From Craspedostauros australis (taxonomy: Eukaryota > Bacillariophyta > Bacillariophyceae > Mastogloiales > Achnanthaceae), in the NCBI GenBank assembly GCA_026770025.1, contig JAMXDE010000014.1, positions 248,001 to 312,000 of the forward strand: 64,000 nucleotides of DNA, written 5' to 3'. The notes beneath the pieces were generated by a model, which did no database searches, was not told the origin of the DNA, and saw only the letters and a list, made by a program, of their open reading frames with translations. Below, piece by piece: positions 7,494 through 58,200 of the stretch (the first letter of the stretch is position 1; each line of letters begins with the position of its first letter). The position numbers and the translations under genes are program-made.

Positions 7494-7774
7494 GGGGGCC
7501 CAAAATCTCATTAGGGATACTGATGGCACAAAGAGCGAAAGAGAGAACGAGAAGATCATGCGAACAAGACAACGAGACGACAACACAACACTCAACCCCG
7601 TACTCCAGCACATCAACAACAGACATCGAATTGTCACTCATATTCTTCACACAGTGCATGGTACTCATACTAATACAAGCTATTGAAGACACGCCATCGA
7701 TATCTCTGCCATTGGTAGCTCGAACTGCACACTTCCTTGACAGCCACTCCAACGCCATCGACCATCCCCTCAAA

Positions 7775-30974: not shown

Positions 30975-33454
30975 TCGCAGGAGGCATGGAGATAGACAAG
31001 GCCGGGAATGGATAGACTGGTTGTAGATGAGAGATGCGTACTATACGATATATATTGTGCTTGAGCGGAGTAGAATAGTTCATGTTCATGTTCATCATGC
31101 CATGTCATGCCATGCACAAGGACAAAGCTGACCATGGACAGAAAAAGAGCTGATGGCGCCGCGACATCGTTGGACAAGAATGAATCCATTCCAACACACG
31201 TTCTTTAGCCACAATGTGCAATAGAGCAGAGCACTTGGCTTGGACATCATATAGTACTGCGAGTACCATTCTCTCCTCCTCTGTTCGTGCAATGGCAAGG
31301 ATATGTTCTATCCTCCCCATACTTGCATGAAGACTACCACCTGCATGGGTAGTTCCACTCGCGAAGTTTGCCGTTGTTCTTCTTGAGTTTCGATCAAACC
31401 GTCTTCTTTGCATTCCGTGTCATGAGCCAATTCGATATTGTCAATCGTGATTGTATCCCACGAATGATCCAATCGTGGGTGTCTTCGTTTCGAAAATCAA
31501 ACCTCGAATCCGTGACTGTCCATTCATGAAGTTCCCTTTCCGCGATGACAACGCAATTTGCGCTATTTGATTGGGTTGAATCGTATCCATGAAGTTCGGT
31601 TTTGGGCGAAAAGTTGACATCAGGAACTTAACTAGCGTTCAACGTATTGTTCTTTTTCGCGATTTTCTTCTGCGCGCGAGGCCAAACGTGGAGACAAACG
31701 AATCAGGCTGAGAATTCTGTGTCGTCATCATGGCGGTTGTCGTGGCGTTTTCTCCTCTTTGGTGGAGACGCATCAACGAAGAGGAGCGAGATTTGGTGAA
31801 GCTCGTTCAAACAAAGGCGACAACATCAACATCGTAGGTAGAGAGTACGCGAACAAACGCCTCGTGCCATCACGGAACTCCCAGCCACATCACGAGTGGA
31901 AGCGCTCCGCCCCCTTTCTGTTCTGTTCTGTTCTGTCGCGTTGGTACAAGGAAGCAAACGCGAGAAGCAGCCCAGAGAGACTGAACGCAGAGAGGGGAGA
32001 AACAAAGGCCGACACGAAGGAACCAACCAACGAACTGCCCAGAGCAACGAATGAGCGCTGGGGCATTGAAGCGTCGAAGTGCTCCGAGTCCTTTTGACCG
32101 AGGAGAGTTGGTCTGCTCTACTACTACAAATAAAAGAAAGCAATTGCACAACATCACAAAGGGGAAGCAAGAGCAACAATCAACCCATCAAATCAACGCA
32201 GCCATCTGTCCCATCATTCATCCATAGAGTGCTAATAGAATACAATTACGTATTATACGAATAGAGCAGAAGCCATCGCATCACATCGCATCGCATCATC
32301 GACACCGACGTCGACATCGATCGTGAAGCAACTGCAGAACACAATAGCAGAGTACATCTCCGAAACATTCCTCGTGGCAGTCTCGGTCTGCATGAATCAA
32401 AAAGTGACAAATTTGTTCTTCATTTCCACACAAAACTTCAATCAGATCTCTTTCTCCACCTCCACCTCCATCATCATCATCAACAGGACAAACATCAGAG
32501 CATTGCTCCTTGTTCTGAACAACAACAACAACAGCAGCAACAACAACCACAAGTACAGTAAAAACAAGTACAGCAAAGACAACAGCCACTCCGAGCATCT
32601 GTAACAACGAACAGATCAAGTGCAGACCTCCAAGAGCCTGTGAATCTACAAATCAGACCAAATAAAGCAAGGGTGGGCCAAACCGGGTGGCACACAGCAA
32701 CAACTCTCATTGTGGTGTTCCTGCGTCGTCCTCCCGCAGACTCAAGACTCGACCACCACGCAGTGCGTACCATACTCGCGCAACTGCGAAGGCAACTGCG
32801 AATTTGCGAACAGAGCGACGCAAAGTTCCCACACACATCAAACAGAAACGCACATTCGTATCCTCACTCAACACGACACGCACTGGAGACTTACAACCGT
32901 CATCAGAGCTGCGATACGCGCAGTCGAGCATTAGGCAATCCTCTGCTCGTATTGCATTCGAAAGAAGAGAGCCCTGTCTGTTGTGGACATATCCGCAACG
33001 AACCTACCATACGGTCGAAGTCCTCCGGGACGGATCGTACGCGATCACATCGTCAGGCGTGGATTGCTTTCTTCACTTCCGTGCCAAGCCCATTTCTCTC
33101 GCTCCGGCTCCGGTCGAATCCTAGCTGACGTGTACTACATCCCGCTTCACAGATCTCTTGAGCCTCTCCAGCCCCTGCACACACAGACGCACGCACACAC
33201 ACACGCACACATCCTTTATTCATCAACATTTCGTCACGAACGCGAACATCAGCAACATCCAGCAATTTCCGTTCATCGCGAGCGCAGATTCAAACAGCCG
33301 AATCGCCTTCGAAGGATACCAGAACGTGCGAAGTAGCCAACCAATACGCGCAGTAGCAAGCAATACACACAAGGTATACACACAATAGCAGCAGCAGCAG
33401 AGAGGGCCAACGCTACGCTACCGTACGCTGCCATACCACATTCCACATTGCACC
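30975..33454. other. Intergenic, 2.5 kb, no gene recognised
   Basis: Holds short direct repeats (TTCATG and CATGCCATG near 31080-31115), CAACAA runs near 32517-32550, and an A/C-rich ACAC tract near 33180-33215 just upstream of the PX gene. Open frames of 60-160 codons occur on both strands but have biased, low-complexity composition and no family resemblance. Confidence 0.55.
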
Positions 33455-36400
33455 ATGATTGATCAATCATCCCTCTTAGATTTCTTCGATATCGAAGCGA
33501 CCCCATCGCGAAACGAAGAGCCATCAGAAGCCCTGGCTTCTCCTCCTTTCATCTCTTCGACTCCCACCGCCATCACTGATTTCCTCGATACAGGTACTTC
33601 GATTACAACACCAACATCGACAGCACCGACGGCAACGACGTACACTGACCCATACGCAGAGGCTCGCTTCGACGCTGATGCTAATGCTGACGACGACACA
33701 GACGACGATGCAGACGAATATGTCGATGCGGATACTCTCTTAAACTCCGAGGTCGATTCGCAATCCATTGCGTACCCGGCAGAACAGCTGCTCTCCCTGG
33801 ACGCAACGCAGTACGCACATGCCCGTGTACAGGTGCAATCACCAGCGTCGTCACCATCACTGGCAGCACCATCCTCAACATCCCTCTCAGCATCGTCCTT
33901 CACATCGATACCACAGCCAGTGCTATCACCAACTATTTATCAGGCCACATCCTTCGATGCAAGCTCTTCGTACCATGGCCCCATACCACACCAGGGAGGA
34001 CTTTGCAGGATTGAAGGTAGCGCCGAGCTCACCTACACCCTCGACGTCCTCCTCCAGGACCTCTCCATGCACCAGCTCAACTTCACCAGGAAGGATTTCG
34101 ATTTTGCCACCCGTCTCTTCGCCATCATGGACACCGAGTCGCGGGGGCAGATCTCCATGTCGACAGTCAAGGAATTCGTCACGATGCGCTGCCCTGTCTT
34201 CTGGAGGCGAGATGAAGATCTGGAACATGGTTCGTACATGTCCATGTCGGCAGCACCGCCACCCATGACCACCTTCGACGAAGTATGGCAGTCGGTGATT
34301 CGATGCAGTCAGATTCCACGGCTCGGGGCACTGGACATGCAATCCATCCGTGCCACCTCCATCGGGGTCGAGGCGTGGATGGTCTTCTGCCGCTTCATCG
34401 CGCTGGCGCAGTACTTGGAGGCGAAGAGGAGGTTCTCCGGCAGGCATTTGCAGCAAACCATGCGACATCGCAACGCCCCACGAGGGAGCGAAGTGGTCAT
34501 GGTCGATGTCCCGCCAGCAGCTCCTCCCTTGCCGCTTTCTGCCGATCAGCTGGCCAACTATGAACGCACCGTGCAAAAATCCTTGCCGCTGCCAGAGCTC
34601 GACTTGGATCATTCGTTGCTAGCGGCGCACGATATGGTGCGCAGGCGCAAACGTCAGCAGCATCTTCACTCTCAAACCGACCGCTCGTATGGAGACAACG
34701 CTCCGCACTTTGTAAACAACGGCCGTGTCGAGATCCAGCTCTTCGGATCTTCCCTCGCAACGCGAAAGGCACTGTCATCCGTCATCAACCCATCATCGAC
34801 CTCCAACACCACGGAGTTTCGCATTGCCTACTTCCGATACTCGGACAGTGCAAATGCTGGCATCGCATCACCATCTGACATCATCACCGTGCGACGTTCG
34901 ATGGAGGACATGAAGTGGCTGCATGACACATTCCAAGCCCACAAGGCGCTTGGCGGGACTCTTTGTGGACGAATCCTTCCGCCGTTTCCTGGAACAGAGC
35001 CGAGCAAGTTTCTTGGTCCCAAGCTGACCAACGAAGAATCTGCTCTTGCGTCCACCGGCGGCGCAGCAATCGCAGCTGCCTCTATTGGGGTTGGGAAGCT
35101 GAAGAAGGGACTCAAGTCGCTGTGGGGCACCTACGTGTCGTCATCGGCGCAGGGCCTGCTTTCTTCGAACGGATCAAGCCTCTCCACTCAATCATCGCCA
35201 TCATCGCTGATGCCAAATTCTTCATCTCCGAAGACTCTGGCGAGCCCACAGCACAAGAAGCGGGTGATGGGACGGAAGGGGACGAAGCCGCTGCCAGACA
35301 ACTATTACAACCCCAACACGCCAGATCATCATGCCAGACAATTCGAGCGATACCTGAACTACCTGCTGGAACATCCTGCTCTGTCAGCATCGTTCCCTTT
35401 GAACACGATCCTCAAGGTGAGTTCCAAAGTACCACGGGAGCTTGTCTTGCATTCTACGTGTGGCATATTTCACTTTGATCTGTTCGCTGCTTGATGACAA
35501 GCACAGCCACAACTACAACCGTTTGCGCCAACACACATGCGAGTACTCATATTTGCACGCAAAGGATGTCGTGGCAGTCTGTCCCAACTCCCACATTCCA
35601 TGATACTCCGTTATTGTGCTGTCTTCACCTTCTAACCTCCAACAATTCCTTTCATCTCTGCACACTTACACCCTTCAGGCAAGCCAATCTGGACTGGTTG
35701 CCGCAAAACAATCGCTGGAAGAGCACGGCCGCGCGCAGAGAGAGACCACGACACAGATGCCGGGTCTCATGGATGGGAACAACCTTCCATTCTGGCCATT
35801 AACTGGTTCGGCGTCGGCGTCGCAAATGAACGTGTCGTGGATACGAACTGCAGCGCAGGCAGCAATCGCATTGAAGATCCACGGAGTTCTGGAAACATCT
35901 GGGTTGCAGTCTGCGAGCGCGAGGTTGCAGCACGCATCATTGCCAAACTACGAGCATGCCAGGATTACAAAATGGCCCGACGAGGATAGCCCCAAACGCA
36001 GCCAGCAACGCAGAAGTATGACGTCACCCCACGGAACCACTGGTAACGGCAACGGTATTGGTACGGGTGATGGTCGTGATCATATGGGTGGAGATATCGA
36101 TGGCGATGTCGACAACAGCTTCGAGGATGGTGTGTTGCATGTGGATGACGAGCTCGAGCACCAGGCTGAAGATGACGACGAGGGAAGTGGATATGACCTC
36201 CTTCCGCTTCCCGTGCCAGCGCCGGAACGAGCGATTTTGAACACAGGCGACTTGTCCTCCGAACGGCAGAAGCCGAAGGAGGGACGGTACAGATACGGAA
36301 GCCCATCTCTCTCCGACCACTTGCTTCACGATGATGAACGTGATTCGCGCAGATCCGCGTTCATTGGTGATATCGCAGTCGATGAGAACATCGACAAGCT

Positions 36401-39596: not shown

Positions 39597-42500
39597 CTAC
39601 CTTCTCGGCCTCAACGCAATCATGGCGATGCCACCGATCACTGCAACCGCTGCCCCGACTCCTGCCAAAACCATGGGGTTCAGCCCTTCTGCTTTTGGTT
39701 CCACGCGATTGGCTGTCAGCTTCACGATGTGATTTCCGGCCGCACGGCCCATGCGCACGGCCTCGTCAAGATCAGCGTTGCTGGTGATGGCGATGGCATC
39801 TCCTTCGTCGTCCACGAAGGAGAACTGGAGGCACTTGGGATCGATGCTGTACTTGTCGCAGAAGGCCTTCTTGAGACCCACCAGGTTCTGATCTGCCTTG
39901 ATCCTGTGGGTATGGCCTGACGGATCGGCGATCTTGTAGGTGACGGTTTCGCCATCGTGATATCCTGTGTGGCTGTCGTTCAGTTTCGACGTGTCGTTCA
40001 TGGACACGCGGCTCATCTCCCCATCCCCGAACTCGAGCGTCCTCGGGATGTGACCGGGCACATCAGACACGAATGGGGCATCCGCTGCAACTCTGATGAC
40101 CGGAGTTGCGCGCGCTTTGACGACTGGCTTCCCAAGAGACGCAACGACACTCGTCTGCGTTCTCGAGGCCGATTGTTTGGACTTCTGCGCGGATTGCGCG
40201 TCGGATGCATCGTCATCGACATCCATCGCGCTGTCAAAGAGCGATCTCCAGCCCTCCGAACCACCGCAGCCGTTGATGACATCCATCACATCAACAATTC
40301 CGAGCACGGTTCCGTCATCTTCGCAAACGGCCAGGTTCAGAACGGCATCATCATGCATCACCTGAAGCGCCTCGAGGACTGTGATATCCGGCGACACGTG
40401 CTCGGGACTTGGGACCATGACAGACTCCACTGTCGTTGTTTCGGGATCAAGTTCTTTGGCAATGACTTGGGACATCACATCTTTGAAGCCCAGAATGCCG
40501 ATTAGCTCTCCCTCGGAAACGACGAGCGTCGCCTTGCGGTTCTTTGCCATCAATCTTGCAGCATCCGCGACGCTGGCGCCTGGGCTCACGATGGTCTTCG
40601 ACTGCTCGTTCAAGATGGTCTTCAAGCTAGGCATAGCATCTGTGCCAAAGGCCTTCTGCATCAGCGGTTGCAGCAATGCATGAAGCACGGCGGTTTGTCC
40701 GTTTTGCGATCCCTGTTGGCTGGTGACAAGGTTGCTCAGCGCATCCTGCACGACCGATGAGCTCTTGGACTTGGATTTTTCCAGTTTCGACATGGCGTCA
40801 TTCAGGCATTTCGCGATGTCCAAGACTCCAGACGTCATGCCCGCCTCGTTCATCACAGGTAGATGGCGGAAATGATTCTCGACCATCGTCACGAGTGCAT
40901 CCAAAGCTGGGTCAGACATCGACACGCAAGTGGGGTTGGGCGTCATCACGGATGAAACTGGCAATGTGCTGGCATCCAAACCCTTTGCCATGACACGCCT
41001 CGTGAAGTCGGTGTCAGTGATGATTCCAGCGATCGTGCCATTGTGGTTGATAATGAGTGAAGCATCTGCGCGATTCTGCGCAAGGAGCTGAGATACCTGC
41101 AGGACAGTATCCTGCATGGACGCAACCAGTGCTTTCCTTGGTCGTAGCTTTGCTACAGTCTTGGAATCCGCGGGACGTTTCTTCGAGTGGTTGCTACGCT
41201 TGGATCGATCAGCCGAGCTGCGAAGACCAGAGTATTGCGACGCGGTGTCAGACAGATCATCCAGCTCCAACGAGCTGCTGAACACAGATCGCCAGCCCTC
41301 TGCTCCGCCACAACCGTAGATCACATCCATCACATCTACGATGCCCACAACCGTCCCGTTATCTTCGCACACAGGCAGTGTGAGGAAACGGTTGTCATGC
41401 ATCGTCTGCAACGCTTCCAGTACCGTGATGTCTGGCGATACGGACTCGGGATTGGGTGTCATCACACTGGAGATCGCAGTTCTATCGACAGACAGACCCT
41501 TCGCAACAACGCGGGTCATCATGTCCTTGAAGCCAAAGATACCAACGAGCCGACCGTTGTCGACCACCAGCGATGCCTTGCGACGATCTGCCATCAACGT
41601 GGCCGCGTCCATCACGCTGGAGGATGGTGACACTACCGTGCTGGGCTTGCCCGCCAGCAGACTCCTGAGAGTGGGAGAGGTTTGGGTGCCAAAGGCTTGA
41701 GCCATCAACGGACCCAGCAGAGCTTGCAGTGCGGCTGCTTGTGAGCCGCTCGCACCTTGGACGTTGATGGCCTGCTTCAGAGCATCTTCCGCTGCGTTGC
41801 CTCCCTTGCCCTTCGACTTCTCGAGCTTGCTGATGGCATCGTTCAGACACTTCGCAATGTCCAGAAGTCCCACGACTGCGCCTGTGCCATCCACAACCGG
41901 CAAGTGACGGAAGTGGTTCTCGACCATGGTGGTCATCGCATCCATTGCCGAATCGGACATGGCCACACAGGTGGGGTTGGGTGTCATGACCACAGAGATG
42001 TTGGTGGATGCAGCATCGACGTGCTTCGCAACCACCCGCCGTGTGATGTCTGTGTCTGTGACGATACCAGCCAGAGCCCCATCTTCGTTGACGATGAGCG
42101 ATGCATCACCACGCTTGTTGGCGAGCATTTGAGTGACAGCGAGGATGGTGTCGAGGGATGATGAGATCATGGGCTTCTTGGGTCGGAGCTTCGATACCAT
42201 CCGCTCTTGCTTCGCTGCTGCTGCTGATGCTGATGTCACTGATGCGGAGGACTTCTTCTTGTTCGATGCCAGAGATGCAGATGCACTTCCGTTGCCGGAG
42301 TACTGCGATGCGGTGTCAGACAGATCATCCAGCTCCAACGAGCTGCTGAACACAGATCGCCAGCCCTCTGCTCCGCCACAACCGTAGATCACATCCATCA
42401 CATCCACGATGCCCACAACCGTCCCATTATCTTCGCACACAGGCAGTGTGAGGAAACGGTTGTCATGCATCGTCTGCAACGCTTCCAGTACCGTGATGTC

Positions 42501-45500
42501 TGGCGATACGGACTCGGGATTGGGTGTCATCACACTGGAGATCGCAGTTCTATCGACAGACAGACCCTTCGCAACAACGCGGGTCATCATGTCCTTGAAG
42601 CCAAAGATACCAACGAGCCGACCGTTGTCGACCACCAGCGATGCCTTGCGACGATCTGCCATCAACGTGGCCGCGTCCATCACGCTGGAGGATGGTGGCA
42701 CTACCGTGCTGGGCTTGCCCGCCAGCAGACTCCTGAGAGTGGGAGAGGTTTGGGTGCCAAAGGCTTGAGCCATCAACGGACCCAGCAGAGCTTGCAGTGC
42801 GGCTGCTTGTGAGCCGCTCGCACCTTGGACGTTGACGGCCTGCTTCAGAGCATCTTCCGCTGCGTTGCCTCCCTTGCCCTTCGACTTCTCGAGCTTGCTG
42901 ATGGCATCGTTCAGACACTTCGCAATGTCCAGAAGTCCCACGACTGCGCCTGTGCCATCCACAACCGGCAAGTGACGGAAGTGGTTCTCGACCATGGTGG
43001 TCATCGCATCCATTGCCGAATCGGACATGGCCACACAGGTGGGGTTGGGTGTCATGACCACAGAGATGTTGGTGGATGCAGCATCGACATGCTTCGCAAC
43101 CACCCGCCGTGTGATGTCTGTGTCTGTGACGATACCAGCCAGAGCCCCATCTTCGTTGACGATGAGCGATGCATCACCACGCTTGTTGGCGAGCATTTGA
43201 GTGACAGCGAGGATGGTGTCGAGGGATGATGAGATCATGGGCTTCTTGGGTCGGAGCTTCGATACCATCCGCTCTTGCTTCGCTGCTGCTGCTGATGCTG
43301 ATGTCACTGATGCGGAGGACTTCTTCTTGTTCGATGCCAGAGATGCAGATGCACTTCCGTTGCCGGAGTACTGTGATGCGGTGTCAGACAGATCATCCAG
43401 CTCCAACGAGCTGCTGAACACAGATCGCCAGCCCTCTGCTCCGCCACAACCGTAGATCACATCCATCACATCCACGATGCCCACAACCGTCCCATTATCT
43501 TCGCACACAGGCAGTGTGAGGAAACGGTTGTCATGCATCGTCTGCAACGCTTCCAGTACCGTGATGTCTGGCGATACGGACTCGGGATTGGGTGTCATCA
43601 CACTGGAGATCGCAGTTCTATCGACAGACAGACCCTTCGCAACAACGCGGGTCATCATGTCCTTGAAGCCAAAGATACCAACGAGCCGACCGTTGTCGAC
43701 CACCAGCGATGCCTTGCGACGATCTGCCATCAACGTGGCCGCGTCCATCACGCTGGAGGATGGTGGCACTACCGTGCTGGGCTTGCCCGCCAGCAGACTC
43801 CTGAGAGTGGGAGAGGTTTGGGTGCCAAAGGCTTGAGCCATCAACGGACCCAGCAGAGCTTGCAGTGCGGCTGCTTGTGAGCCGCTCGCACCTTGGACGT
43901 TGACGGCCTGCTTCAGAGCATCTTCCGCTGCGTTGCCTCCCTTGCCCTTCGACTTCTCGAGCTTGCTGATGGCATCGTTCAGACACTTCGCAATGTCCAG
44001 AAGTCCCACGACTGCGCCTGTGCCATCCACAACCGGCAAGTGACGGAAGTGATTCTCGACCATGGTGGTCATCGCATCCATTGCCGAATCGGACATGGCC
44101 ACACAGGTGGGGTTGGGTGTCATGACTACAGAGATGTTGGTGGATGCAGCATCGACATGCTTCGCAACCACCCGCCGTGTGATGTCTGTGTCTGTGACGA
44201 TACCAGCCAGAGCCCCATCTTCGTTGACGATGAGCGATGCATCACCACGCTTGTTGGCGAGCATCTGGGTGACAGCGAGGATGGTGTCGAGGGACGATGA
44301 GATCATGGGCTTCTTGGGTCGGAGCTTCGACACCATCGTCTCCTTCACTGTCTCGCCGAGAGGCTCCAAGTTTGACGGCTTGGATCTCACAACAGGTTTG
44401 GACTGTTGAATCCCAGTGACCGAGCTAAGCTCCGATACGTCATCGGCAATGTCAATCGCTGAGCTGAAGATTGACTTCCATCCATTCGCCCCACCGCAGC
44501 CTTTGATAAGGTCCATCACATCAACAACGCCCACAATGCTTCCATCATCCTCACACACAGGCAGCGTGAGGAAATGATGATCGTGCATCATCTGCATCGC
44601 CTCAATCACGTTAATGTCTGGCGATGCATATTCTGGATGCGGGGTCATGATGTCGCTGACAGGGGTGGAACTGATTGGGCGATTCTTGGCAATGACACGT
44701 GTGATGATATCTTTGAAAGCCACCAGGCCCACAAGCTGTCCATCTGTGACGACCAGAGCTGCCTTGTGCCCCATGGCCATCGCCTTGGCTGCCTGGAGGA
44801 TTGTGGTATCAGCCGTCACAATGACCGGGTTGGAATTTGATGTCAACTTCCGCAACGAAGGCACTGCGTCAGAATCCATCCCACCTGCCAGCAGCACCTG
44901 CATCAAGATCTTGAGGTTCTCGGCGTTTGACACGTCTAGATTTGATCCAGCGAGCTGCCTTGACACGTGCTCCATGGAAGGAGACGCCGAGGCGTCGCCA
45001 TCCCCTTTCTCCTTTTCCAACTTCGTGATCGCCTCATCGAGACAACGGCCAATATCGAGAAGGGCGGTGACCGCGTTGCTATCGTCCAGCACCGGCAGGT
45101 ACCTGATGTCATTTTCCACCATGATCGTCAGCGCCTCCATCGCATCGTCAGAAACATGCACAGATCTAGGATTTGCGGTCATGACGAGCTTGATCGCAGT
45201 TTCATCGTTGTCCAACTCTTGCGCAACAACGCGTTTAACGATGTCGTGATCGTTAATGATGCCTGTTGCACTCGCTCCCGTGTTTGAATTGGAAACGACA
45301 GCTGCCGCCGATCGCTTTGCTGCCATTGCTTGGCATACGTTCCGGATGCTGTCGTTGAGGTGCACGACGCATGGCTTGGAGGGACGGAGCTTGGACACTG
45401 ACTTGCCTGTGGTCGAAACATCGACAATGGACCGCGGTGCTTGCATGGGAGTCGACAGTGTCGGTCTCGTCCCAGTCACGGTCATCGCAGAGCGTGCGTT

Positions 45501-48500
45501 TTTTGGTTTCGTGCCTGGGACTGTCCTCGGAACCACGGGAGCAGAAGTCACTGACCGGTCCGACATTGGCTTGGCTCTGTCGACTGTAGGAACTTTGACG
45601 ACAGGGGGCGTTGCGACTACTCGAGGTGCGGTAACAGCTCTCGGTGCACTCGCCTGCAGAACAGGAGGCGCTGTCGGCCCCGCGGATTTCATTTCCGTGG
45701 CCAACCGTCCTTCCAGGCGTCCAATCTCTTCATCCAAGTCTTCGGCGTCTCGAAATCGTTTCTCCTGGATGGCGTTCTGCATCGATCGTTTTTTGTCAGT
45801 GAGAAGCGTTTTGAGCTCATGGATGGTCGGGAGATCGGTGCGGACGGCTTCGAGCCTATCGATGTAAGCCTGAATCGCCTCTGCTTGCGAGAATTTCTTC
45901 GCTGCGATGGATGTGCTGAGATCCGCCTGGGCCTTGCTGATATCTGCCTCCAGCTCACTCCGGCTCTCGTAGGCCACCTCTTCGCCATCAGCATTCTTCA
46001 CAGAAGCTACCGTCGCGGTCTGTTCCACTCCAGCAGACTTTCCAAGTTCTGCTTCTGCCTCGATCTTTTGTTGCAATGCATCGATCTTTTCCTGCAGTTC
46101 ACCGGCTTTCGAGAAATCCTTCTTAGCAATGGCTTCGTCCATCTTCGTCTTCAGCCCTTCCAGCTTGTCCTTCATATCATCTAGCGACGGGAAGTACTCT
46201 CGCAACTTCTCGCGACTATCGAGCGTCTGTTGCAATGACGAGGCCTGCTGAAAGTTCTTGGTGGCGATGGCTTCGTCGATTGATGCTTGCAGCCCCACTA
46301 TCGCAGCCTCAAGTTCTGCCCGCGAGCTGAATCCTTCAATTTCAGTCGGTTGCTTTGCTGCCGATTCGTCATCGGAAATCGATTCGTCGTCATCTTTCTC
46401 GTTGGACTCCGCGTCTGCCAACCTCTTCTTCGCATCATCGAGCTTGGACTGGAGTTCAGCAGCAACTGAAAAGTTGCGTTCGTCCGCTGCCTTTGCCACA
46501 GCATCTTCTGCATCCGTCACGGCCTGCTTCAGCTCTTCCATCGTGGGCAGGTCTGCACGCTTTGCAATCAACGCTTCCAGGCTTGCCTGCAATGGACTCG
46601 CTTCCGCGTACGCCTTCTTGCTGATGGCATCGTCCAGTTTCTCTTGAACTTCTGCGATCTTTGCTTCGAGCACTGGTCTTGTCATTGGTCGGCGTGACTC
46701 AATGACGGCGTTGAGATTCGCACTACAAGAAGCAGAATGCAGCAGGCAATATGTATTGCAACATTGCGTATTGAAGGGTAAGAGAGAAATCAGATATGTG
46801 AGAAGAGTCGAAACAGAGCGAACATTTGCGCTGACACATGCTGACCATTCACGCGAAGAATGGCGTGACACTTGGCCGCATCCCCATGACATTATCACTG
46901 TGATGTGATATCAAACGTATTGTATTGGATCGCATGGCGCAGCATTGGTGAGGACAGTGCATCAATTGGTCGACACTAACACGGGTACGTACATCTTTTG
47001 TTCCTGTTCGGCGGCAACCTGGAAGTTCTTGTTCTTGACTGCATCCTCCAGGGTCGCTGACTCCGTCTTTAACAGCTTCTTGAGTCCTTTGAAGTCGATG
47101 TCACAGTACGGATCCTTCAACTTCCTCAGAACCTGTTTGGCTGCTACGCTTCGTGCAAGGCACTGCATCTTGGTGGCTGCGTTGATGGTGGACTTGAACA
47201 CAGCGATTTGGCGGCTCATCCTGAACGCAGCCGCAATCTTCGTAGCAGCTCGGGCTGCTCGGTAAACCTTCATCATGTGGAGACGGAATCGGACCCACTG
47301 CACCAAAATCCGAGAGGCGCACTTCTGTGCAACTCTTCGTCCAAAGCGGCCGACGGTTCGAGCAGCCGAATGGACGCGCAGCCTCGCGAGTCGTTCCAAC
47401 TTGATGGACAAATCACGGCGCAGGAATATCTTCGAATGCCCAATCTGCCAATCCGCATCCGTCACGGACAAGCGCTTCGACAGCACGTCAACGAGCTGCA
47501 CGATCCCTGCTTCGGGGCCCAAGTCTTCGGGATTCAGCAGGACGCTGAAGCGATTGTAAAAGCTTTCGTGCTCTTCTCGCAAGGCGTAGCCTTCGCGCCG
47601 GATACGAATCGCTTCCATCATGCCGGAATACCGCAGCTGTCGCAACACTTCACCGGCAGCAAATGAGTTTGCGCTCTTCTTCAGGTTGGGCTTGATGCAA
47701 CGGACATAATGCGGCTGCGTGTTCTCCAAATCATCCACTAATGATTGGAGGGAAGATTTGAATTGAGACGCCACGCTGACACCACGGATGGTGGACCGCC
47801 GCGTGGCTCCTGTGGCTTGCTGAACTTCGCCTTCGCTACCTCCGCATGCGTACACCTGTTTGGTGAGCTCAGATTTCGACGAGTCTCCAAGATCTCGCAG
47901 TTCGTTGCTCAGGGTTTCCATGTTCTTCTCCACGAAGCCGTTCACCGTGTACCGGACCTAAGTACCGCGTGGAGGAATGTGACAAGAGCCAAGCGGCGCA
48001 CGAAACGAGCAGGATCAACAGCAGGAGCATGAACACGAGCATTGTCGTCCGACGGCAGCATGTGATTTGAGATGCATATCGTGAGACGCAGGCATGAATG
48101 TATGGTATACAGCAGGAATCGTGGCGCGTAGTCCGCTGCAAACATTGTAAATGCACTCAAACGAGCCAAAAGGCACACCAACAGTCGACGTACCTCCCCG
48201 GCATAGTGGACAATGATGAACTGAAAGTCGTTGCCGAACTTGGGCGTGACGAAGTAATCATGTCTCTTGTTTGCTCCGTTGTCGTTCTTCTTGGCGCTTG
48301 GGGCGACGCCCGCGTTGCCACCGAACAGCTTGTGCAGCTGGCTGACGAATTTGAGGTCCTTCTCGCTGGAGCTGCCCATTCCGCCCCACGCATCGTCGAG
48401 GGTGTTGATGATGCCGACAGTCCCGTTCCCGCCTTCGATGAGCTCAAGACAGGGACGGTTGTCGTTGAAGGAGATGTAGGTCCAGTCCACGCCCTCCGAA

Positions 48501-50823
48501 GCGTACAGATTCTGCTCCACCTCGAAAAGGTGTCTGTTGAAGTGTCTCTGGAGCTTCTCGTTGCAGTAGTTGATGAGCATCTGTTCGTATCCGTTCGCCT
48601 CGAAGCATTCGAAGCCGTAGATATCAAGAACACCGATGAAGCCGAGTTTCTCGCCATCGGTGGGCTGCGCTGTGTTGAACCCTTCGTCCTTGAACTTTTC
48701 CTGGCTGAGGGTTTCATTGATCGATTTGACGAGCCAAATGAAGAGGCAGCTATATGTCATTTTGGCGAATGCGTCGCGCTTGTCGGATGCCATCGCGACT
48801 GTTTGCTGCTTCTTGATGGTCTTGCCACCGATTGTCAGGAGCTTGGTGAGGATCGCCTCCGACAAATCACCTTCTTCTATCTCGAGTAGATCGCAGGCCT
48901 TTCTGAGGCTGGATTTGGATTCCTCGGAGACGATTGCGATATGTTCACCATTCTCATTGACCTCCTCCTCGAAGACGATGTTGCCCAGATGGAGGACTGC
49001 GGCGACGACTTCAAACACTTCGTCCTGCTGCTCGTCGTCCAAACCGAGTCGGTCAAGGCAGTTCACCGTGTCCACGAGGGCGTCGGCGTCCTTCTGCGTT
49101 TTTGGACTTGCCTTGTTGCTGAGATACTTGAAAGCCTCCGCGCCACCACTCAGACCGAGCTTCTCAAGCTGTTCCGTTTTGCCGGATGCCAGCAGCTGGT
49201 AGAAGATGTGATAATTCCTTTCGCCGTCAATTTGGGTGGTGATACGCGTCTTCTCTAGAAGGTAGTTCGACACCGTCGCACCGACGATGCCGCCGGTGGA
49301 TGTGCTGAACATGATCTGAATGAACTTTCCAAACCGGGAGGAGTTGTCATTGTACAGAGTCTGGGCATTTCCGAATGTTTCCAACAGAGGATTGGATGAC
49401 AGCACACGATCCTCCAAGGCCGCGATCATCTTACCAGTTGGGCTCATCAGCTCTGAACCTGCTGCACCGGTGCGCTTCTTTGTGATACGTGCAAGGTATT
49501 GCATGATGTACTTGGTGGCCTCGGTCTTTCCGGCACCGCTCTCGCCGCTGATGATGATGCTCTGGTTGCGGGGTCGGCCAGGGACGTGGAAATGCGTGCC
49601 GTCGTCGCCCATGACCTCCGAATTGTCTTCCTCGAGGTTGCTTGCGATCCTGCGCACGGAGTCGCGGAGGGCGGAATAGGCCCTGTCGGCAACCTGAAAG
49701 AGATGGGGTTCCAAGTCCGAGAAGTCATCGGCGTTGCGGTATTCCAACATGACTTCGTCGGAATACATGGACCTGCCGCCAGCCAACACGACCGGTTTGT
49801 AGGGATTGACAGAGATCATGATGGGCCCTGCGCTGGTGTAAATGGCATCGCGCTTGTACCGGAGCCGGAGGGCATGCAGCAATGATGGTTCCGTGACATT
49901 GGCAAGGTTGAGAACATCTGACATGCCGACGTAGTCATCCGGCGAGATGAGCGGCGTCAGAAGCGACGAGTCCGATATTTTGTGCAGCGTCCCGTCGGCC
50001 GTCTTCACCAAGGCCGGTCCCCCAAGGTTGCGTTCGTTGTGGTTGGTGTCATCTGCGAGGTTTGCGGTCTCCACCGGTGTTGGCACAGCATCCCCTTCCT
50101 CCGATGCGAGTGACTTCACGATGATGCATGGCATGAATAGGTGCTTCGACGAAAACAACACTGGGTCCGTGGAGGAGAAAGAAATGCTGCCGCCGCCGCT
50201 GCTTTTGGATGGAGTTTTAAACGACGTCGACGAGTTGTTGGTCTCCTGGATGACAAGTCTGGGATCGAAGAAGTACTCCACAATTGCTTTGCCAGTCACC
50301 TATGGTACGACCAATATCATTGCCATTGAATGTGATTGCGAGCAATTGCATGGTGTATGTATTGGGCGTGCGTGCGTGCGCATCGTAGTATAATAGATAT
50401 GTATTGTGTTTGTGCGACGACCCAAAGTGATGGCAAGTCCAATCAAGTGCATCGGGTCCAGGGTAGTTTGTGCACCAAATGGATTGCATGCCAGATGGTG
50501 CAGTAACGGTAGTGTGCGAGTCGGACGCAGCTGGATGCAGTTAGATGCAGTTGGATTGAACGTATGTAACAAATATGGAGCACCGTGAAATGGCCATCGT
50601 CCGATTGCATTGGCCACAAGCAAAGCACAAGACACATCCAGCGCAATCATGTTGTGTGAAATGAAACGTCCCGCAAAGATCCCCCAAACAGGAGCGCCAG
50701 GGCAGCATCCCTTGGGGTTTGGACGAAACGTACGAGATCCACAGCCTTGGCTCTGCTGGATTTGGCGGCAGATCCGGCCCTGCCAGCAGAGTTCTTCTTC
50801 GGAGTGACGAAGGAAGACGACAT
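39597..50823 (-). CDS. Giant class XXIX-type myosin with 20 CBS domains, PB1 and membrane anchor
   Basis: Four exons: 50823-50734, 50299-48194, 47957-46993, 46722-39597 (about 3428 aa). All three donors are GTACGT; phases 0, 0 and 2 all fit. Motor domain in exons 2-3: P-loop GESGAGKT (about 281), switch I NNSSRFGK (about 347), switch II DIYGFE (about 590), and TQPHYVRCIKPN. Degenerate IQ-type neck about 929-1005. Seven UVR-like helical hairpins about 1040-1395; the first is completed only by splicing exon 3 to exon 4. After a Pro/Thr-rich linker come five blocks of four CBS domains (about 1494-3200), then a PB1 domain (about 3313-3400) and one membrane helix followed by RPRR. This layout agrees with class XXIX stramenopile myosins. 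A membrane-anchored motor sensing adenine nucleotides through its CBS domains is inference. The locus is easily mistaken for two genes. Confidence 0.88.
41225..44335. repeat. Three near-identical 1068-bp tandem repeats inside the myosin tail
   Basis: Blocks at about 44335-43268, 43267-42200 and 42199-41161 (minus strand) repeat with an exact 1068-nt period (356 codons). Each encodes four CBS domains and a Ser/Ala-rich linker. By eye the copies differ at only a handful of bases, for example two amino acid changes in the third copy. The flanking blocks (about 45401-44336 and 41160-40205) encode the same fold but are clearly diverged in DNA. Confidence 0.95.
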
Positions 50824-51645: not shown

Positions 51646-54600
51646 TTAGGTACAGAAGGCGGAGACTGGTTTCGGGCAGGCAGCAGCTGGATCGCTGATG
51701 GTGTAGGTCTGGCCAGGAGGGCCAGGGCACATGTCCGTTTTGGCACAGTCTTGGCAACCCGAAGCGGGGGAGCAGGTACCGGCGGTGATGACGAGATCGT
51801 CAATCGCCGCGTTGTCGTTGGCAGCGCCGTTGCAACTGTTTCGCGACATGCACGCGCCGTCTCCAATGTTCACGCTGCCCAAAGTCTTGCTTGCGCCAGC
51901 GTGCAGGTCCTTGCAGGAAGCTGAACCTTGGCAAGCGTTCGTACCGATGAAGATGTCAGCGATCTGAGGAGTGACGGTCGTTCCTTGGTTGGCACGCAGT
52001 GCGAGAGCGTTGCAGCTTTCATTGCCATTGCATGCCGCTTGCTCGACACGAATGTTACCGTACACGTTCACTCCGAGATCTTGGCAGCCGCAGGTACCAG
52101 TGCATGCGGCCGGTCCGATGATGACGTACCCAATATCAGCACTCTCGCCGGGACGGACTTCGACTCGGAACACGCTCGGCACTTCACTTGGGACGATGCT
52201 TGGAGCGCTGCTGGGCGCAATGCCGGGAGTTGGAGCTTCGCTCGGCGAACTACTGATACTTGGAGCGTCGGTGGGCCCTGGAGTTGTGGTAGGTGCGGCG
52301 CTTCCGGTTGGACTGGGTGTTGCAGGTGGTGTCGGTGGGGCCGCACCAGGGGGGCTGGTAACCATCAAGGTCGGTTCAAAGCTTTCACTGGGTGCGACGC
52401 TCCTGGAAGGAACCATGCTCGGTTCTTCGCTGAAGCTTGGGGTCGAGCTTGGTGCGATGCTTTTGGAGGGCATCAAGGTGGGTTCCAGGCTTTTACTCGG
52501 TGCCTGACTGACGGAGGGTTCTTGAGTAGTTGTTGGAGGGGGCACCCCACGTGGCTCGAATCTGCCAAGGCTCCAGCAGGACTTGAATCCCAAGCAGCTT
52601 CCGATGATGATGGAATCCGGGGCCACGTCGATGCAAGATTCGTCCGCTGCGCACGAATCTGGAGTGATGGTGAATACAGAGTCGTCGGATGTGAGGCAGG
52701 AAGAGCCCGAAGAACCTGGGCAACATGCCGCGTTCAGATCTCTGCATCGCATCTCAAGCTCGATCGAGGTTCCGGTGAGGAAAGTTCCACTTCCTTCGAG
52801 AGCGGCAAGGATGGCTGCGATGGCATTCGGGTCATTTTTGATACGGTCGAAGCGCGACTGGGCCTCGCTGGGCGAAGAGGGAGTTGCTGTGTCCGGACCG
52901 CATCCAAAGATGCTCTTCACCAGCCTGTCCTTGTTGGATGGGAGCCGCTCGACGGCATTGACGAAGTTCGTGCACACACCCACGTTGTCATCGCAGAGGA
53001 CAACAGGCGCAGGGGTAATTGCTGATCTGACATCGCCTGGTGTCGTCAAGCATACGCTCTGGAAGACTGTCTTGTTGATAGTCGGGGCATCAGTGGGGTT
53101 CACTGTCGGTCCGTCTGATGGCAATAAGCTCGGGAAGTTGGAGGGCCCATTCGATGGAAGCATGCTCGGCTGATCTGACGGCGCATCAGATGGCGTGGCT
53201 GTTGGTCCGTTAGACGGGAGCTCGGACGGCAGCACGGACGGGACGTCACTCGCAAGTGGAGTGGGTGCGAAAGTTGGACATTCAGTAGGTCGGTCGGCTC
53301 TGTTGACGCAGAACTCCGAGACAGCGGCGCCGGTTGGGTTATCGGCACCGTCCTTCGGACAGGCGAGAGATGGGTTGACGATGACGTAAACCTGGGAAAA
53401 TGGGTGTGGGCAGCCTTGCGTGAAGCATCCTTGGCAAACCTCGGTTCCGTCGCAGCTATCCTCCGGCACGACGATGTCGGTTGTCATGAGATCGTTCAGC
53501 CCGAGGCTTTCGCAGGCGGAGCTGCCGTTGCAGGCACCGTCGTTGATGACGAGGTCTCCCCCAATCTTCCCTCCTGGAGCAGCGGCGACGGATCCGTGTG
53601 CAGATGTGCAGGCGTTGGAGTTTGTGCAGGCATTCTGGCCAATGTTGACGTTGCTGATGGTGCGGGCCGCTGTGGCTTGTTTCGCACGCCTTCCGACGCC
53701 TGTGCACGAGTTGCTCCCGATGCAGGCACTGTTCTGGACGATCGCGTCACCGTACGAGAAGGCGCCAAGGTCGGTGCACGAACCACCGCTTGTGCAGGAG
53801 ACTTGTCCAACGAACGTGACGCCGGAGCTGACGACCGGGTCTTCGTTTTGATTGAGGCCTTCGCATGCGGAGTTGCCAGTGCAGGCAGACTCCAGAATGA
53901 GCGGATTTGGACCCACGTCGGCGCACGCAGAGGTCCCAGTGCAGGCATCCAAAGCCACGGTCATGTACGCGGTTGGACTAGTCGAGGAACATGCGCTGCT
54001 AGCGCAGCATACTCCGCTGGCGTTGCTGCACGCAGTTTCGATGTCGGCAGGCAGAGCTGTGACCAACGCCGTTCCGGTGGTTGCCACCTCTTCAAGCTGC
54101 CGTGACAGCTCTGGGTTGTATGCGTATCGGTTGAAGAGGACGCGCGCTGCATTCTCTCCCAAGTTGCCGGCGCACCCAAAGTACGTTCGCAGATCGGGAG
54201 TGCTGCGGACGGCAAGGATTGCTTGGCGACAGGATGCCTTTTCCTTGTTGCAAATGAGTGTCTTGACTGCCTGCTCTGCTGGCGTGAGCGCTGGTGTGGG
54301 GTCTACGTCCGGGTTGCACACAACGATGATGCTTGCATCAAACGCAGTGGGGGCCGAAGTTGCCACAGCACTTGGCGAAGATGAAGGCGTAACACTTGGC
54401 CCTGAGCTCGGGTTGCCGCTTGCTTCGGCACTCGGGACGGTAGATGACGTGATAGTTGGTCCGGAGGTGGGTCGGGACGTCGGCATGGAAGTTGGGGCTG
54501 AAGTTGGTCGGGAAGTAGGCATGGAGGTTGGCTGAGAAGTCGGACGAGAAGTAGGCATGGAGGTTGGCTGAGAAGTAGGCCGAGAAGTAGGCATGGAGGT

Positions 54601-55251
54601 TGGCTGAGAAGTAGGCCGAGAAGTAGGGCTGGAGGTTGGCTGAGAAGTCAGACGAGAAGTAAGCATGGAGGTTGGCACAGAAGTTGTTCCTGCAATCGGT
54701 GTGGAAGTTGGCAGAGTTGTCGGCCCGGATGTTGGTGCAGCAGTTGGCGACACGGTGGGCCCGCTGGTTGGTGCTGAAGTTGGTCTTGAGGTCAGGGCAG
54801 AGGTAGGTACGTCCGTTGGTGAAGAAGTGGGGGCCAAGGTGGGTGACGGAGTAGTGAGAGTTGAGGTTGGGGAGCTTGTGGGAGCCGAGGTTGGATTGCT
54901 TGTGATGCAGCCACTCTTGCTTTGTCCACTACCAACACCACCATCACCACTGCTGGTGCCACCACCCTTGCCTTTGCCTTTGCCACTACCGACATCGCCG
55001 CTGGTGGTGTCGCAGCTGCTGCCACTCAGGCCCTTGCTCTTGCCCTGGCTCTTGCCCTTTCCTTTCGTCGTGAGACCATCGCTCTTGTCGGTGCTGTCCA
55101 TGTCGTCTGCTTCAAGTAGACGTGTAGTGCGGAGCAAGCCATCGCGGTACTTCTTGCGCGCCACATCTCCACGACCGTGCAGAACTGCGTCAGTCATCGC
55201 CATGCTGGCAAGAAGCAGCGCGCCCATCATGGCGACCTTGAACTTGAACAT
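51646..55251 (-). CDS. Secreted PTS-repeat protein with duplicated Cys-rich modules
   Basis: Single exon, 1201 aa from the ATG at 55251, chosen because it gives a signal peptide (MFKFKVAMMGALLLASMAMTDA). The frame is open upstream but shows no similarity. Residues 60-115 are Gly/Lys/Ser-rich. Residues about 120-290 are PTSxPTS repeats, likely O-glycosylated and extended, as in many diatom wall or surface proteins. Two homologous modules follow (about 305-655 and 745-1201): a Cys-bearing helical part, seven C-x(5)-C units spaced by short strands (ACTGTSAC, ACIGSNSC, ACNGNESC), and an ending with a Cys cluster and ACPK. Ser/Pro-rich spacers separate them. No C-terminal anchor is seen. Function unknown; cell-wall or adhesive matrix is a guess. 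Confidence 0.85.
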   Translation of the reverse strand: MFKFKVAMMGALLLASMAMTDAVLHGRGDVARKKYRDGLLRTTRLLEADDMDSTDKSDGLTTKGKGKSQGKSKGLSGSSCDTTSGDVGSGKGKGKGGGTSSGDGGVGSGQSKSGCITSNPTSAPTSSPTSTLTTPSPTLAPTSSPTDVPTSALTSRPTSAPTSGPTVSPTAAPTSGPTTLPTSTPIAGTTSVPTSMLTSRLTSQPTSSPTSRPTSQPTSMPTSRPTSQPTSMPTSRPTSQPTSMPTSRPTSAPTSMPTSRPTSGPTITSSTVPSAEASGNPSSGPSVTPSSSPSAVATSAPTAFDASIIVVCNPDVDPTPALTPAEQAVKTLICNKEKASCRQAILAVRSTPDLRTYFGCAGNLGENAARVLFNRYAYNPELSRQLEEVATTGTALVTALPADIETACSNASGVCCASSACSSTSPTAYMTVALDACTGTSACADVGPNPLILESACTGNSACEGLNQNEDPVVSSGVTFVGQVSCTSGGSCTDLGAFSYGDAIVQNSACIGSNSCTGVGRRAKQATAARTISNVNIGQNACTNSNACTSAHGSVAAAPGGKIGGDLVINDGACNGSSACESLGLNDLMTTDIVVPEDSCDGTEVCQGCFTQGCPHPFSQVYVIVNPSLACPKDGADNPTGAAVSEFCVNRADRPTECPTFAPTPLASDVPSVLPSELPSNGPTATPSDAPSDQPSMLPSNGPSNFPSLLPSDGPTVNPTDAPTINKTVFQSVCLTTPGDVRSAITPAPVVLCDDNVGVCTNFVNAVERLPSNKDRLVKSIFGCGPDTATPSSPSEAQSRFDRIKNDPNAIAAILAALEGSGTFLTGTSIELEMRCRDLNAACCPGSSGSSCLTSDDSVFTITPDSCAADESCIDVAPDSIIIGSCLGFKSCWSLGRFEPRGVPPPTTTQEPSVSQAPSKSLEPTLMPSKSIAPSSTPSFSEEPSMVPSRSVAPSESFEPTLMVTSPPGAAPPTPPATPSPTGSAAPTTTPGPTDAPSISSSPSEAPTPGIAPSSAPSIVPSEVPSVFRVEVRPGESADIGYVIIGPAACTGTCGCQDLGVNVYGNIRVEQAACNGNESCNALALRANQGTTVTPQIADIFIGTNACQGSASCKDLHAGASKTLGSVNIGDGACMSRNSCNGAANDNAAIDDLVITAGTCSPASGCQDCAKTDMCPGPPGQTYTISDPAAACPKPVSAFCT
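54480..54677. repeat. 36-bp minisatellite encoding SQPTSMPTSRPT
   Basis: About five tandem copies of a 36-nt unit in the reading frame of the secreted protein, each encoding 12 residues. Copies are nearly identical, so length variation between alleles is likely. Confidence 0.9.
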
Positions 55252-58200
55252 GGTTCCTGTAGCTAGATGCCTTGAGGTGAGTTGGATCGTCAGACACGCA
55301 GCGTGGCGACAAGGGTCGGTGTTATGCCGATGCGTGCCATGATGACGAGATAGGACCAGTTTCACGCCCATGACAACGTCCAGCACCATGCACCATGATG
55401 CGAAGTCATTTTGAAGCGATGAATCCGTAGAACGACAATATTGAGACGAATTGATGAATGTGTGAGTGGGAAATGGAATTAACGATCGAAGAAGGAAACA
55501 GCAGTCGAAGGAGAGAGGCTCTATCCGCGGTGGCGACGGCAGCCGCACGGATGAGATGCGCTGCGGACGACGACAACATACGAGAGGGCACGTGGACCAA
55601 GAAGCGAAATGGGAGCTGGGTGGTCCGTGCCAGTGCCACGCAGACTCGCACAAGTTCCGCGCTTCTTCTCCCATGCTGATCGCTGCGTTGATCGTGTTGC
55701 ACCAGTTGCATCTCACGCTTCGTATCTTGTATTCAGTCGCAACCGATGGGGGAGTGGAAGCCTGGCCATGCTGCCGCTCATCGCCCTTTGGATATTGCCC
55801 TTGCTTCATCTGACAACATGCGGTGAAGAAGTAGTGCCCATTGTGCTGTTGGTTGACGTTGACATCATCGTGCCTGCCTGAAAATTGCACATGCGAGTAG
55901 TTTGTGTATGAATAAGTATGGTGTATATGGTACATACACATCGTGAATGCACTCGTGCTGGACTCACTTCTGCTGGCTGCTCGATCAATTGATCTTGGAT
56001 TGACCTGCGATTCTGGTGCACTGCTCGTTGTCTGTGTTGGCTTTGCACTCTTCACTCGATGTGTTTTTTGAGGAGAACAGAGTTGTCTTGAGACAACAGA
56101 AGTGATGCCGATTCAACACAAGATGAATGCTGTGAATGTTTTTTATGCTGTTGTTGCGGTTGCTCACATTGTGCTGTGGTTGCTCTCACAAATTGAAGTG
56201 GCGTGAATGTTCTTGCGTCCAGTGTCTTCGTGTTGGTTGGCAGGTTTGCTGTGATACCGGAAAATGGCGGGAACGCCACGCAGGCATTAAAAAACTGAGG
56301 ATCATTCGTCCAACGCAGGGTGTGGCTGATGGTACAGCGATGAAGTGAAGTCCGTGATTAGCGTCGAACGTGGCAGCAGAAGGCTTGGACGTCACAGTGT
56401 GGCCGTTTTGAAACTTTATTCGTTTTCTGTTCATCTCGTAAGCATTGTGTGGTCTGGAGGATTGGGAAATATTCGTCGACGAGTTTTGCTTCGGGTGACC
56501 GCATGCGAGACCTACGGTACGAGCATTGGCGGTGGGGTGGCCCGTGATGAACGGAACTGATGCGTTTGCATTCGTATGGTGTGGTGGCCACATTGTAGGG
56601 CGAAGAGTGGAGGTGCAGAGGTTTACGGAAGGAGGCGATTGACCCTGTTTGTTGTCGCCCTCTCTCTCTCTCTCTCTTTGTTCGAACGATGTCTTGGCTG
56701 CGCATTGTGCTCCAGACGCCATTTGAACTTCATCAGAATCGCAAGGGCGCACCGCGATGATTGTTGGTGCAGCAGCCAAGGAATTGGGCTGACTCACGGC
56801 GCCTCTGCAGACGCCGGGGATCGTGCTGTCGTCCAATTCTTCGAGACCTTTACCGTTGCAGGTGGTTGATGCTCTCTCTCTCTCTCTCTGCGTCTCCCTT
56901 TCGTTGTTGTTGATTGTTTGTGAAGGCCACAACGCGCCCTTTCGCCAAAGAAAGTGGAAGTTTGTGTGTTGGTTGCCTTGTGGGCTTTGAGCACGTCGGG
57001 ATGGCCGGTCTTGGAGTTTGTGCAATGTGCGACCGGCGACAAACTCAAATCGTCATAGGTCAGAAAGCGCGGAAATGGAACTTTGGATTGTTGTGTGTGG
57101 CGTGTCGTATTCTTCTCCATTAAGTATCACTATGTCTGAACACAGACTAATATACTTATAGCACACGCATCAGCGCCCCAACATCGGCGTAGTATTCATT
57201 GATGTTAATGTCCCGTTGCGACACACTGTTCAGCCTCTGCACATAATCGTTTGATTGCGTCGTTTCTGGTAGATACCAATGATATTAAGTTGCATAACGC
57301 CACTCGCTTCACATAAATGACGAACAGTCAAGTTGACAAGCCAGAACAGAAAAGCAAAGAACAACGCCGTCGATCAGCATTCGCTGCGTTCATTGCGGCA
57401 TAGCCTCTGCAAGCAAGATCCAACTATCTTTATTTGCGTCCGTCGCACCTCTTGTCCGCCATGCAACGTTGCCACGCCCGAAGGAACATCAACCGCAGTT
57501 TCGCGTCATTCCGTGCAGTATTACCGACACATTTTGTTGTGCTGGACGCAGCTTCGCGCCAACTCTGAGTCGTGTGCTGGCCAAAGATCGCTCAACTCAT
57601 CCACGACTCCTCAAACGATTCACAAAATTGTCCGGCGCTCCTTCGCTTCCGTTGCGCTTTCTGCCTCTCACAAAATTGGGAACAAGCATTGTGCATCAGT
57701 CGCAGGTTGCGCATCAGTTGCAGGTTGCGCATCAGTTGCAGGTTGCGCATCAGTCGCAGGTTGTGCATCATTTGGAAGAAGTGTGGTAGACCACTCGACA
57801 GAGAGCGTGAGCCCATCCGCAGCAAATCCATCACCTCGGCATCGTAAATCCTCGCGTGCGGCCTCGTGCATCAATCCACGTAGCCAGGACGCTGTATGGC
57901 GTACTGGCGCCCTGCCACGGCTCATCCGCACGTCACGAAAAATACTCTGCTAAATCCACGCAGCACGATCAGATTGCTGACGTCATGTTTTGACGCGATA
58001 CTCTCGCTCGGGTTTCGTTCAGTCTTGCCATCGACCGTATCGCTTCATTCGAACTTCGACTCATCTGACTTAATCATCGCGCCAACAAGAAAATCTCACC
58101 AAAGATACCTTTTCGCACTCGACAACACACACATGTTCCTGAACAAGATCGCCCACAACAGGCATGACCACGAAGCAGGCAACGGTCAGGTGAGGAACCA

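Follow-up and report, generated by a model that had tools for sequence, protein, structure and literature searches.

A class XXIX myosin gene of Craspedostauros australis joins a motor to twenty CBS domains, a PB1 domain and a predicted membrane anchor

A 64,000-nucleotide stretch of the Craspedostauros australis genome (the window; GenBank assembly GCA_026770025.1, contig JAMXDE010000014.1, positions 248,001 to 312,000) carries one minus-strand gene whose predicted protein runs, in order, through a myosin motor, seven helical hairpins, 20 CBS domains, a PB1 domain and a single C-terminal membrane helix. We place this gene in myosin class XXIX and consider it probable that the class combines its motor with a tail of the fungal Mug70 type, anchored to an organelle and tuned by adenylates. 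Sequence comparison establishes motor, neck, CBS blocks, PB1 and anchor in one predicted chain, together with their conservation.

Four exons (Table 1) splice to 10,287 nt in one frame of 3,428 codons (amino acids), with a single stop, at the end, and the three introns (434, 236 and 270 nt) all run from GT to AG. The third intron is where one gene could be taken for two. Its donor, GTACGT, begins at 46992 and its acceptor, TTGTAG, ends at 46723, with agreeing phases, exactly to the base as given in an earlier note on this DNA; the 90-nt first exon at 50823 proposed there also joins in phase and is backed by the majority consensus of 16 full-length relatives, which likewise starts M...VDLVTGK...YFFDP. 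Splicing at this join matters, because unspliced exon 3 runs into a stop soon after the donor. That stop, the 2,437-codon open frame formed by exon 4 alone and the existence of fungal CBS/PB1 proteins as separate products (538–734 aa in the 120 listed, the best 120 of 1,389 matches) would suit two tandem genes, a short myosin followed by a separate CBS/PB1 membrane protein. The relatives argue otherwise. A protein search yielded 106 relatives with the tail, many of them incomplete records, and 47 of these proteins, besides carrying the tail, cover more than 75% of a motor. When 250 residues around the join of exons 3 and 4 were compared with ten relatives, eight aligned across it unbroken at 43–49% identity, three of them (P0047, P0106 and P0108) named as MMETSP transcripts; the alignments of the remaining two, Tribonema P0073 and Phytophthora ramorum P0066, are local and begin past the join. 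The join also falls inside a repeated helical hairpin. Given relatives that are continuous over it, we rejected the two-gene reading, which now seems extremely improbable, and the earlier proposal of a single gene stands: as read from the genome and its relatives, motor and CBS tail are one gene, a matter settled short of RNA from C. australis.

The Pfam myosin head is divided between exons 2 and 3, and its translation keeps the P-loop GESGAGKT, switch I NDNSSRFGK and switch II DIYGFE. Grouping of 20 six-frame matches gave twelve myosin genes in the genome, the other eleven of which coincide with no CBS match. A tree was built from 41 motors, comprising 30 of the 48 CBS-type myosins and the 11 paralogs from this genome (with one copy of a doubly fetched paralog). 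All 30 CBS-type myosins lay on one side of a branch with support 100 and the paralogs on the other, in a tree where other named classes are not represented. Within it the window motor was placed with Cylindrotheca, Nitzschia and Pseudo-nitzschia, and the named members among the other 29 CBS-bearing myosins are all stramenopile, including Phytophthora and Tribonema 'myosin 29'. Odronitz and Kollmar (2007; PMC2375034) described class XXIX from stramenopiles, with very long tails in which three IQ motifs, short coiled coils and up to 18 CBS domains are joined by PB1 and by a transmembrane domain at the C-terminus. By motor phylogeny and domain content the window gene is a new member of this class, described in 2007 with the same tail, which bears out the class suggested in the earlier note. 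A search of the open literature found no paper on class XXIX function, PMC2375034 alone treating these myosins (most subscription papers lay outside the search).

Pfam recorded no IQ match in the three exon frames (E up to 0.1), and a genome-wide IQ scan, in which 150 of 297 candidates were scored, gave none at the window gene. The miss is not decisive, since 10 of 16 relatives also lack a match and only 6 have one; by eye, the window neck holds degenerate IQ-like helices. Elsewhere in the genome, frames of 2,600–3,970 codons rich in IQ-motif matches lie near 1024000, 1080000, 1596000 and 2938000 of G000:C6. By the TEDS rule, the residue that lies 16 positions ahead of DALAK is mostly acidic or phosphorylatable in myosins. 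At this site, located at about 48830-48750 in the window motor (GGKTIKKQQTVAMASDKRDAFAK), class XXIX has lysine in 39 of the 44 motors parsed (of 48), serine in four and asparagine in one.

The tail is built in units of four. Pfam identified 20 CBS stretches in exon 4 (544.6 bits) and our own CBS profiles returned the same 20, confirming the earlier count. This is an ordinary number for the class: the idea that 20 is a record was rejected, as 26 of the 106 relatives also carry 20, while three have 4, seven have 8, 44 have 12 and 20 have 16. The count is a multiple of four in 100 of the 106, with six exceptions (2, 3, 10, 14, 14 and 19), and low counts are lower bounds because many of the records are incomplete. 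From these sequences, the array is made of four-CBS units, here called blocks, each of about 290–300 residues plus linker; in the window gene their period is 1,044–1,068 bp.

A source for this tail was sought among fungal CBS/PB1 proteins, using a query stretch that matched real proteins at 86–91%; the best 120 of 1,389 matches were used. Those listed with an organism name are all fungal; among the protein names 'CBS and PB1 domain' protein is frequent, and 'meiotically up-regulated gene 70' also occurs. The class XXIX last-block profile matches all 120, spanning model positions 5–300 of 302 in the four inspected, and the last block plus PB1 of the window aligns with Aspergillus nidulans AN5716 (P0299) over 516 columns (31.8%, E 1e-60). 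Every one of the 120 ends in a membrane-helix-like stretch, followed in 119 by no acidic residue. An earlier protein search, with 120 of 144 matches listed, had given named proteins that were all stramenopile and no free-standing CBS/PB1 family. A six-frame scan of this genome, blind to introns, found PB1 at only two places, one in this myosin and one in an NBR1-like frame, and hence showed no free-standing CBS/PB1 copy. CBS-PB1 proteins have been reported in fungi, plants and Chromista by Mutte and Weijers (PMC7051960), in whose accessible text 'myosin' occurs twice, on another matter.

Because the tail end, from the last four-CBS block through PB1 to the membrane helix, is homologous to the fungal Mug70 type, class XXIX most simply arose by the joining of a motor to such a free-standing CBS/PB1 protein, followed by copying of the four-CBS unit. 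Fusion followed by block duplication had been proposed from a likeness to plant CBSCBSPB proteins; with the fungal form as the test, it is supported by the end-to-end alignment and by the four-CBS blocks, three of them 99% identical. As a separate observation, the fungal CBS/PB1 proteins P0264, P0269, P0270, P0284, P0307, P0313 and P0345 are labelled '(mitochondrial) ribosomal protein subunit S4' or similar, names that are perhaps a trace of co-purification with mitochondria.

Block histories were analysed in the window protein and 97 of the 106 relatives, 98 proteins in all, each of them with eight or more CBS domains and a total divisible by four. Twenty-one are termed oomycete, 17 by name and four without an organism name (P0057, P0080, P0081 and P0090) by resemblance; the remaining 77 are termed ochrophyte. 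All 21 oomycete-type proteins have 20 CBS domains, the two most alike blocks within a protein are 42–51% identical, and 105 of 105 blocks are closest to the block at the same position of another oomycete-type protein. Among the other 77, the window included, a block of the same protein is nearest for 94 of 256 blocks, often at 90–100%; these counts skip matches of ≥90% to other proteins (near-duplicate records), which favours 'own protein' as nearest. In the window, blocks 1 and 5 have only 47% and 60% identity to their nearest neighbour, and blocks 2, 3 and 4 are 99% identical in protein; their first 957 nt hold two non-synonymous differences, and dS is 0.013–0.038.

An unrooted tree of 44 blocks from 12 of the 98 proteins and two fungal proteins (relative to an earlier quick tree, two of the four fungal rows and six blocks that were long or near-identical are omitted) set the oomycete blocks apart at one branch (support 96/94) and the ochrophyte blocks apart at a second (92/87, under the tool's threshold for a star). 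AU tests, run after the quick tree had been viewed, rejected the grouping of all last blocks (p-AU 6.7e-106) and of all first blocks (3.8e-35). This separation and the AU rejections imply that arrays were built, or overwritten, separately in each lineage, so the oomycete and ochrophyte arrays appear to have been amplified, or homogenised, separately; gene conversion and duplication are indistinguishable from the present data. For the window itself, the very low dS and the proneness of tandem copies to assembly error suit a reading in which blocks 2–4 are near-identical through gene conversion, or partly through misassembly, the true array being shorter or longer. We think this rather unlikely. 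Blocks 2 and 3 differ at 7 sites, all synonymous, and so are not one copy read twice, and near-copy blocks occur likewise in other genomes (four at 100% in P0009, two at 96% in P0006).

What the blocks may bind is suggested by their fold. An AlphaFold2 model of block 5 is an AMPK-gamma-like disc of four CBS domains, its fold matching AMPK gamma and archaeal MJ1225 at about 16–20% identity. In alignment columns, the ribose-binding T/S-x-x-D of CBS1 is kept in 360 of 361 blocks from oomycetes, diatoms and other ochrophytes, and the ribose positions of CBS1–3 read Asp, basic, Asp in 320 of 361; in AMPK gamma the corresponding pattern is D-R-D-D. Two findings weigh against nucleotide binding: window block 1 is the sole block of the 361 lacking T/S at the CBS1 ribose site, with N in its place, and AMPK gamma is absent from the 60 sequence matches shown (of 75). 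An alternative makes the array a mechanical spacer or multivalent binder without nucleotide sensing, as might be expected from a block number that varies (mostly 2 to 5), from ochrophyte blocks that are often near-copies, as would suit a length device, and from a CBS3 T/S position occupied by G or A in 175 of 361 blocks. It is hard to square with the constancy of the CBS1 site, which also recurs in 110 of the 120 fungal-type proteins (10 not parsed), and we regard it as improbable. The response to adenine nucleotides proposed in the earlier note is thus upheld as far as predicted fold and site conservation go.

Between motor and array lies a neck of hairpins, numbering seven in 21, six in nine and four in 18 of the 48 motor-bearing proteins, the window included. 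A hairpin profile gave 603 matches in all necks and none in shuffled necks, and a structure model of the exon 4 part shows six helix-turn-helix hairpins; the seven helical hairpins answer to the short coiled-coil feature of class XXIX. The neck had been called UVR-like, and one hairpin of the seven (hairpin 5, 28.2 bits) does pass the Pfam UVR cut-off. Membership of the neck as a whole is weakly borne out: Pfam UVR was matched in one of 16 relatives, the 11 matches of the hairpin profile to PDB sequences include no UVR structure, and the hairpin model matched no solved fold at E≤0.001.

The PB1 domain scores 28.1 bits by Pfam, above cut-off (22.1 bits in the whole-exon scan, just below its cut-off of 23.6). 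Of 183 proteins, 181 have the lysine of its basic face; for the two aspartates of the acidic face the figure is 182 each. An anchor stretch follows in most tails, as detailed below. With both faces kept, PB1 could chain head to tail, or meet an NBR1-like protein. The frame that holds the second PB1 of the genome (L025, G000:C29:265769-265936) also has, by eye, a ZZ-like zinc finger and ends at its C-terminus in a UIM-like stretch; it is NBR1-like and a candidate partner. We accordingly dropped the idea that PB1 is unique in the genome and hence homotypic; the existence of this second domain means that the pairing need not be homotypic, a point against head-to-tail clustering.

The protein ends in a hydrophobic stretch and the tail RPRR. 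Both searches were pooled and, with the window, gave 187 proteins that run on for more than 100 residues past their last CBS. An anchor was scored where a stretch of at least 15 residues close to the C-terminus includes no D, E, K, R, N, Q or H, and 179 of the 187 have one. Beyond it the tails are free of acidic residues in all 179, no longer than 8 residues in 173 and of a simplified dibasic pattern in 164. RPRR itself fits the expanded dibasic motif, a tail of 3–8 residues after a short helix, taken from PMC4154396, and in tobacco cells anchors with dibasic tails proved both necessary and sufficient to reach mitochondria (Marty et al., PMC4154396). A search of the mitochondrial list in that paper for plant CBS/PB1 proteins, by name and four gene numbers, found none.

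Other observations weigh against the anchor or its mitochondrial address. The anchor counts come from related, non-independent proteins, set against no control of unrelated anchors; Tribonema P0073 and seven other tail-bearing proteins have no helix by the rule; and the fungal tails are dibasic in only 11 of 120, mostly as R-x-x-x-R. Several plant dibasic proteins reach more than one organelle (PMC4154396), and basic C-terminal tails, common to several organelles, also mark peroxisomal and plastid-envelope anchors (review, PMC8644595). An anchor bound for the peroxisome, the endoplasmic reticulum (ER) or the outer plastid membrane, and not for mitochondria, has a little under an even chance in our estimate. 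Diatom plastids lie inside an ER-continuous membrane, which also counts towards such a destination. Against it, oomycetes, which to our knowledge have no plastid, share the same basic tail, and all 179 tails are free of acidic residues. The terminal residues of ER anchors, by comparison, tend to be nonpolar or negative, where there are any (PMC8644595). Since the oomycetes share the tail yet lack plastids, mitochondria or peroxisomes are the likeliest destinations, and the basic tail suggests one or the other; mitochondria alone we judge not quite an even bet.

In the mechanism that we propose, the C-terminal helix and its short basic tail would bring the protein into the membrane of an organelle after translation, with peroxisomes or the outer membrane of mitochondria as the likeliest sites. 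Each four-CBS block would form a closed AMPK-gamma-like disc with adenine nucleotide bound at least at the first CBS, and PB1, having both faces, would cluster tails head to tail. Nucleotide state would alter disc shape or clustering and so tune the hold or pull that the motor exerts on the organelle along actin. We infer membrane insertion, nucleotide binding, clustering and coupling to the motor; the last, from nucleotide state or clustering, is the weakest step. Tentatively, and with less than even confidence, we suggest that stramenopiles built an energy-gated organelle motor by uniting a myosin with an adenylate sensor of the Mug70 type that is tail-anchored in mitochondria (or peroxisomes), the product having two to five AMPK-gamma-like discs in a row. 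On this reading selection seems to act on disc number, because oomycetes and ochrophytes built their arrays separately and both reached five, and array length would set the reach of the tether or the steepness of the AMP/ATP response.

The evidence moves class XXIX from a list of domains to a testable idea of location, ligand (adenine nucleotides) and tail source. If the idea is true, a motor tuned directly by adenylate on an organelle surface would couple energy state to the movement of organelles in a new way, both in diatoms and in oomycetes. The four-CBS quantum, with separate growth of the arrays, offers a clean case of repeated repeat gain in a motor tail.

Feature coordinates in the window are collected in Table 1. 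Upstream of the myosin gene, a 1,488-codon frame (51649-56112, minus strand) contains PT-type disordered repeats and holds a 36-bp minisatellite at 54470-54684. An ankyrin-repeat frame at 7433-8614 (plus strand) has 102-bp units 80% alike and 306-bp units 87% alike in DNA, a likeness from which it seems to have been amplified fairly recently.

Table 1. Features of the myosin gene and other frames, in window positions
Feature	Position	Strand	Basis or remark
Exon 1	50734..50823	-	30 codons, start ATG at 50823; splice model and N-terminal consensus of relatives
Exon 2	48194..50299	-	N-terminal extension and most of motor; splice model, Pfam
Exon 3	46993..47957	-	Motor end, lever/neck with degenerate IQ-like helices (by eye), start of hairpin 1; GTACGT donor at end
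Intron 3	46723..46992	-	270 nt, disputed join; relatives unbroken here
Exon 4	39597..46722	-	7,126 nt: hairpins, 20 CBS, PB1, membrane anchor, stop
Myosin motor domain	47418..49933 (approximate)	-	Pfam Myosin_head; broken by intron 2 (48193-47958)
Neck, seven helical hairpins of ~45 residues	45702..47090	-	Hairpin profile, structure model; hairpin 1 spans intron 3
CBS block 1 (CBS 1-4)	44511..45389	-	Most diverged; ribose-site T replaced by N
CBS block 2 (CBS 5-8)	43458..44324	-	99% aa identity with block 3
CBS block 3 (CBS 9-12)	42390..43256	-	CBS profiles, block comparison
CBS block 4 (CBS 13-16)	41322..42188	-	CBS profiles, block comparison
CBS block 5 (CBS 17-20)	40278..41147	-	Residues 2913-3202 of the protein; AlphaFold2 model an AMPK-gamma-like four-CBS disc
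PB1	39717..39944	-	Basic (K) and acidic (OPCA) faces both present
Predicted membrane helix at the C-terminus (22 residues), then the basic tail RPRR	39600..39677	-	Hydropathy; model helix 495-515, low confidence
CitMHS-type transporter frame	11141-13039	-	
Prenyltransferase toroid frame	19102-20586	+	
PCI-domain protein frame	26223-27491	+	
Possible PX-domain protein frame	33389-35494	+	

Among known systems, class XXIX as published shares with the window gene a stramenopile motor, short helical stretches, many CBS domains, PB1 and a C-terminal membrane helix, and the window motor falls in its clade. The published class has three IQ motifs and up to 18 CBS domains, whereas the window gene has no IQ by Pfam and 20 CBS domains; the accessible part of PMC2375034 is silent on the fold, on blocks of four CBS domains and on any free-standing CBS/PB1 ancestor. 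AMPK gamma and MJ1225 share the four-CBS disc, predicted for the window block, but at the low identity given above, and the window protein is no part of a kinase and would carry several discs in series on a motor. Fungal CBS/PB1 proteins of the Mug70 type have four CBS domains and PB1 colinear with the myosin tail, a C-terminal membrane helix, a basic tail and the ribose-site T..D in CBS1 and CBS3; they differ in having no motor, a single block and tails that are rarely dibasic. Finally, animal myosin XIX is a mitochondrial myosin, and if the anchor prediction is right the window protein would resemble it as a myosin tethered to the mitochondrial outer membrane, though of a different class and with a different tail.

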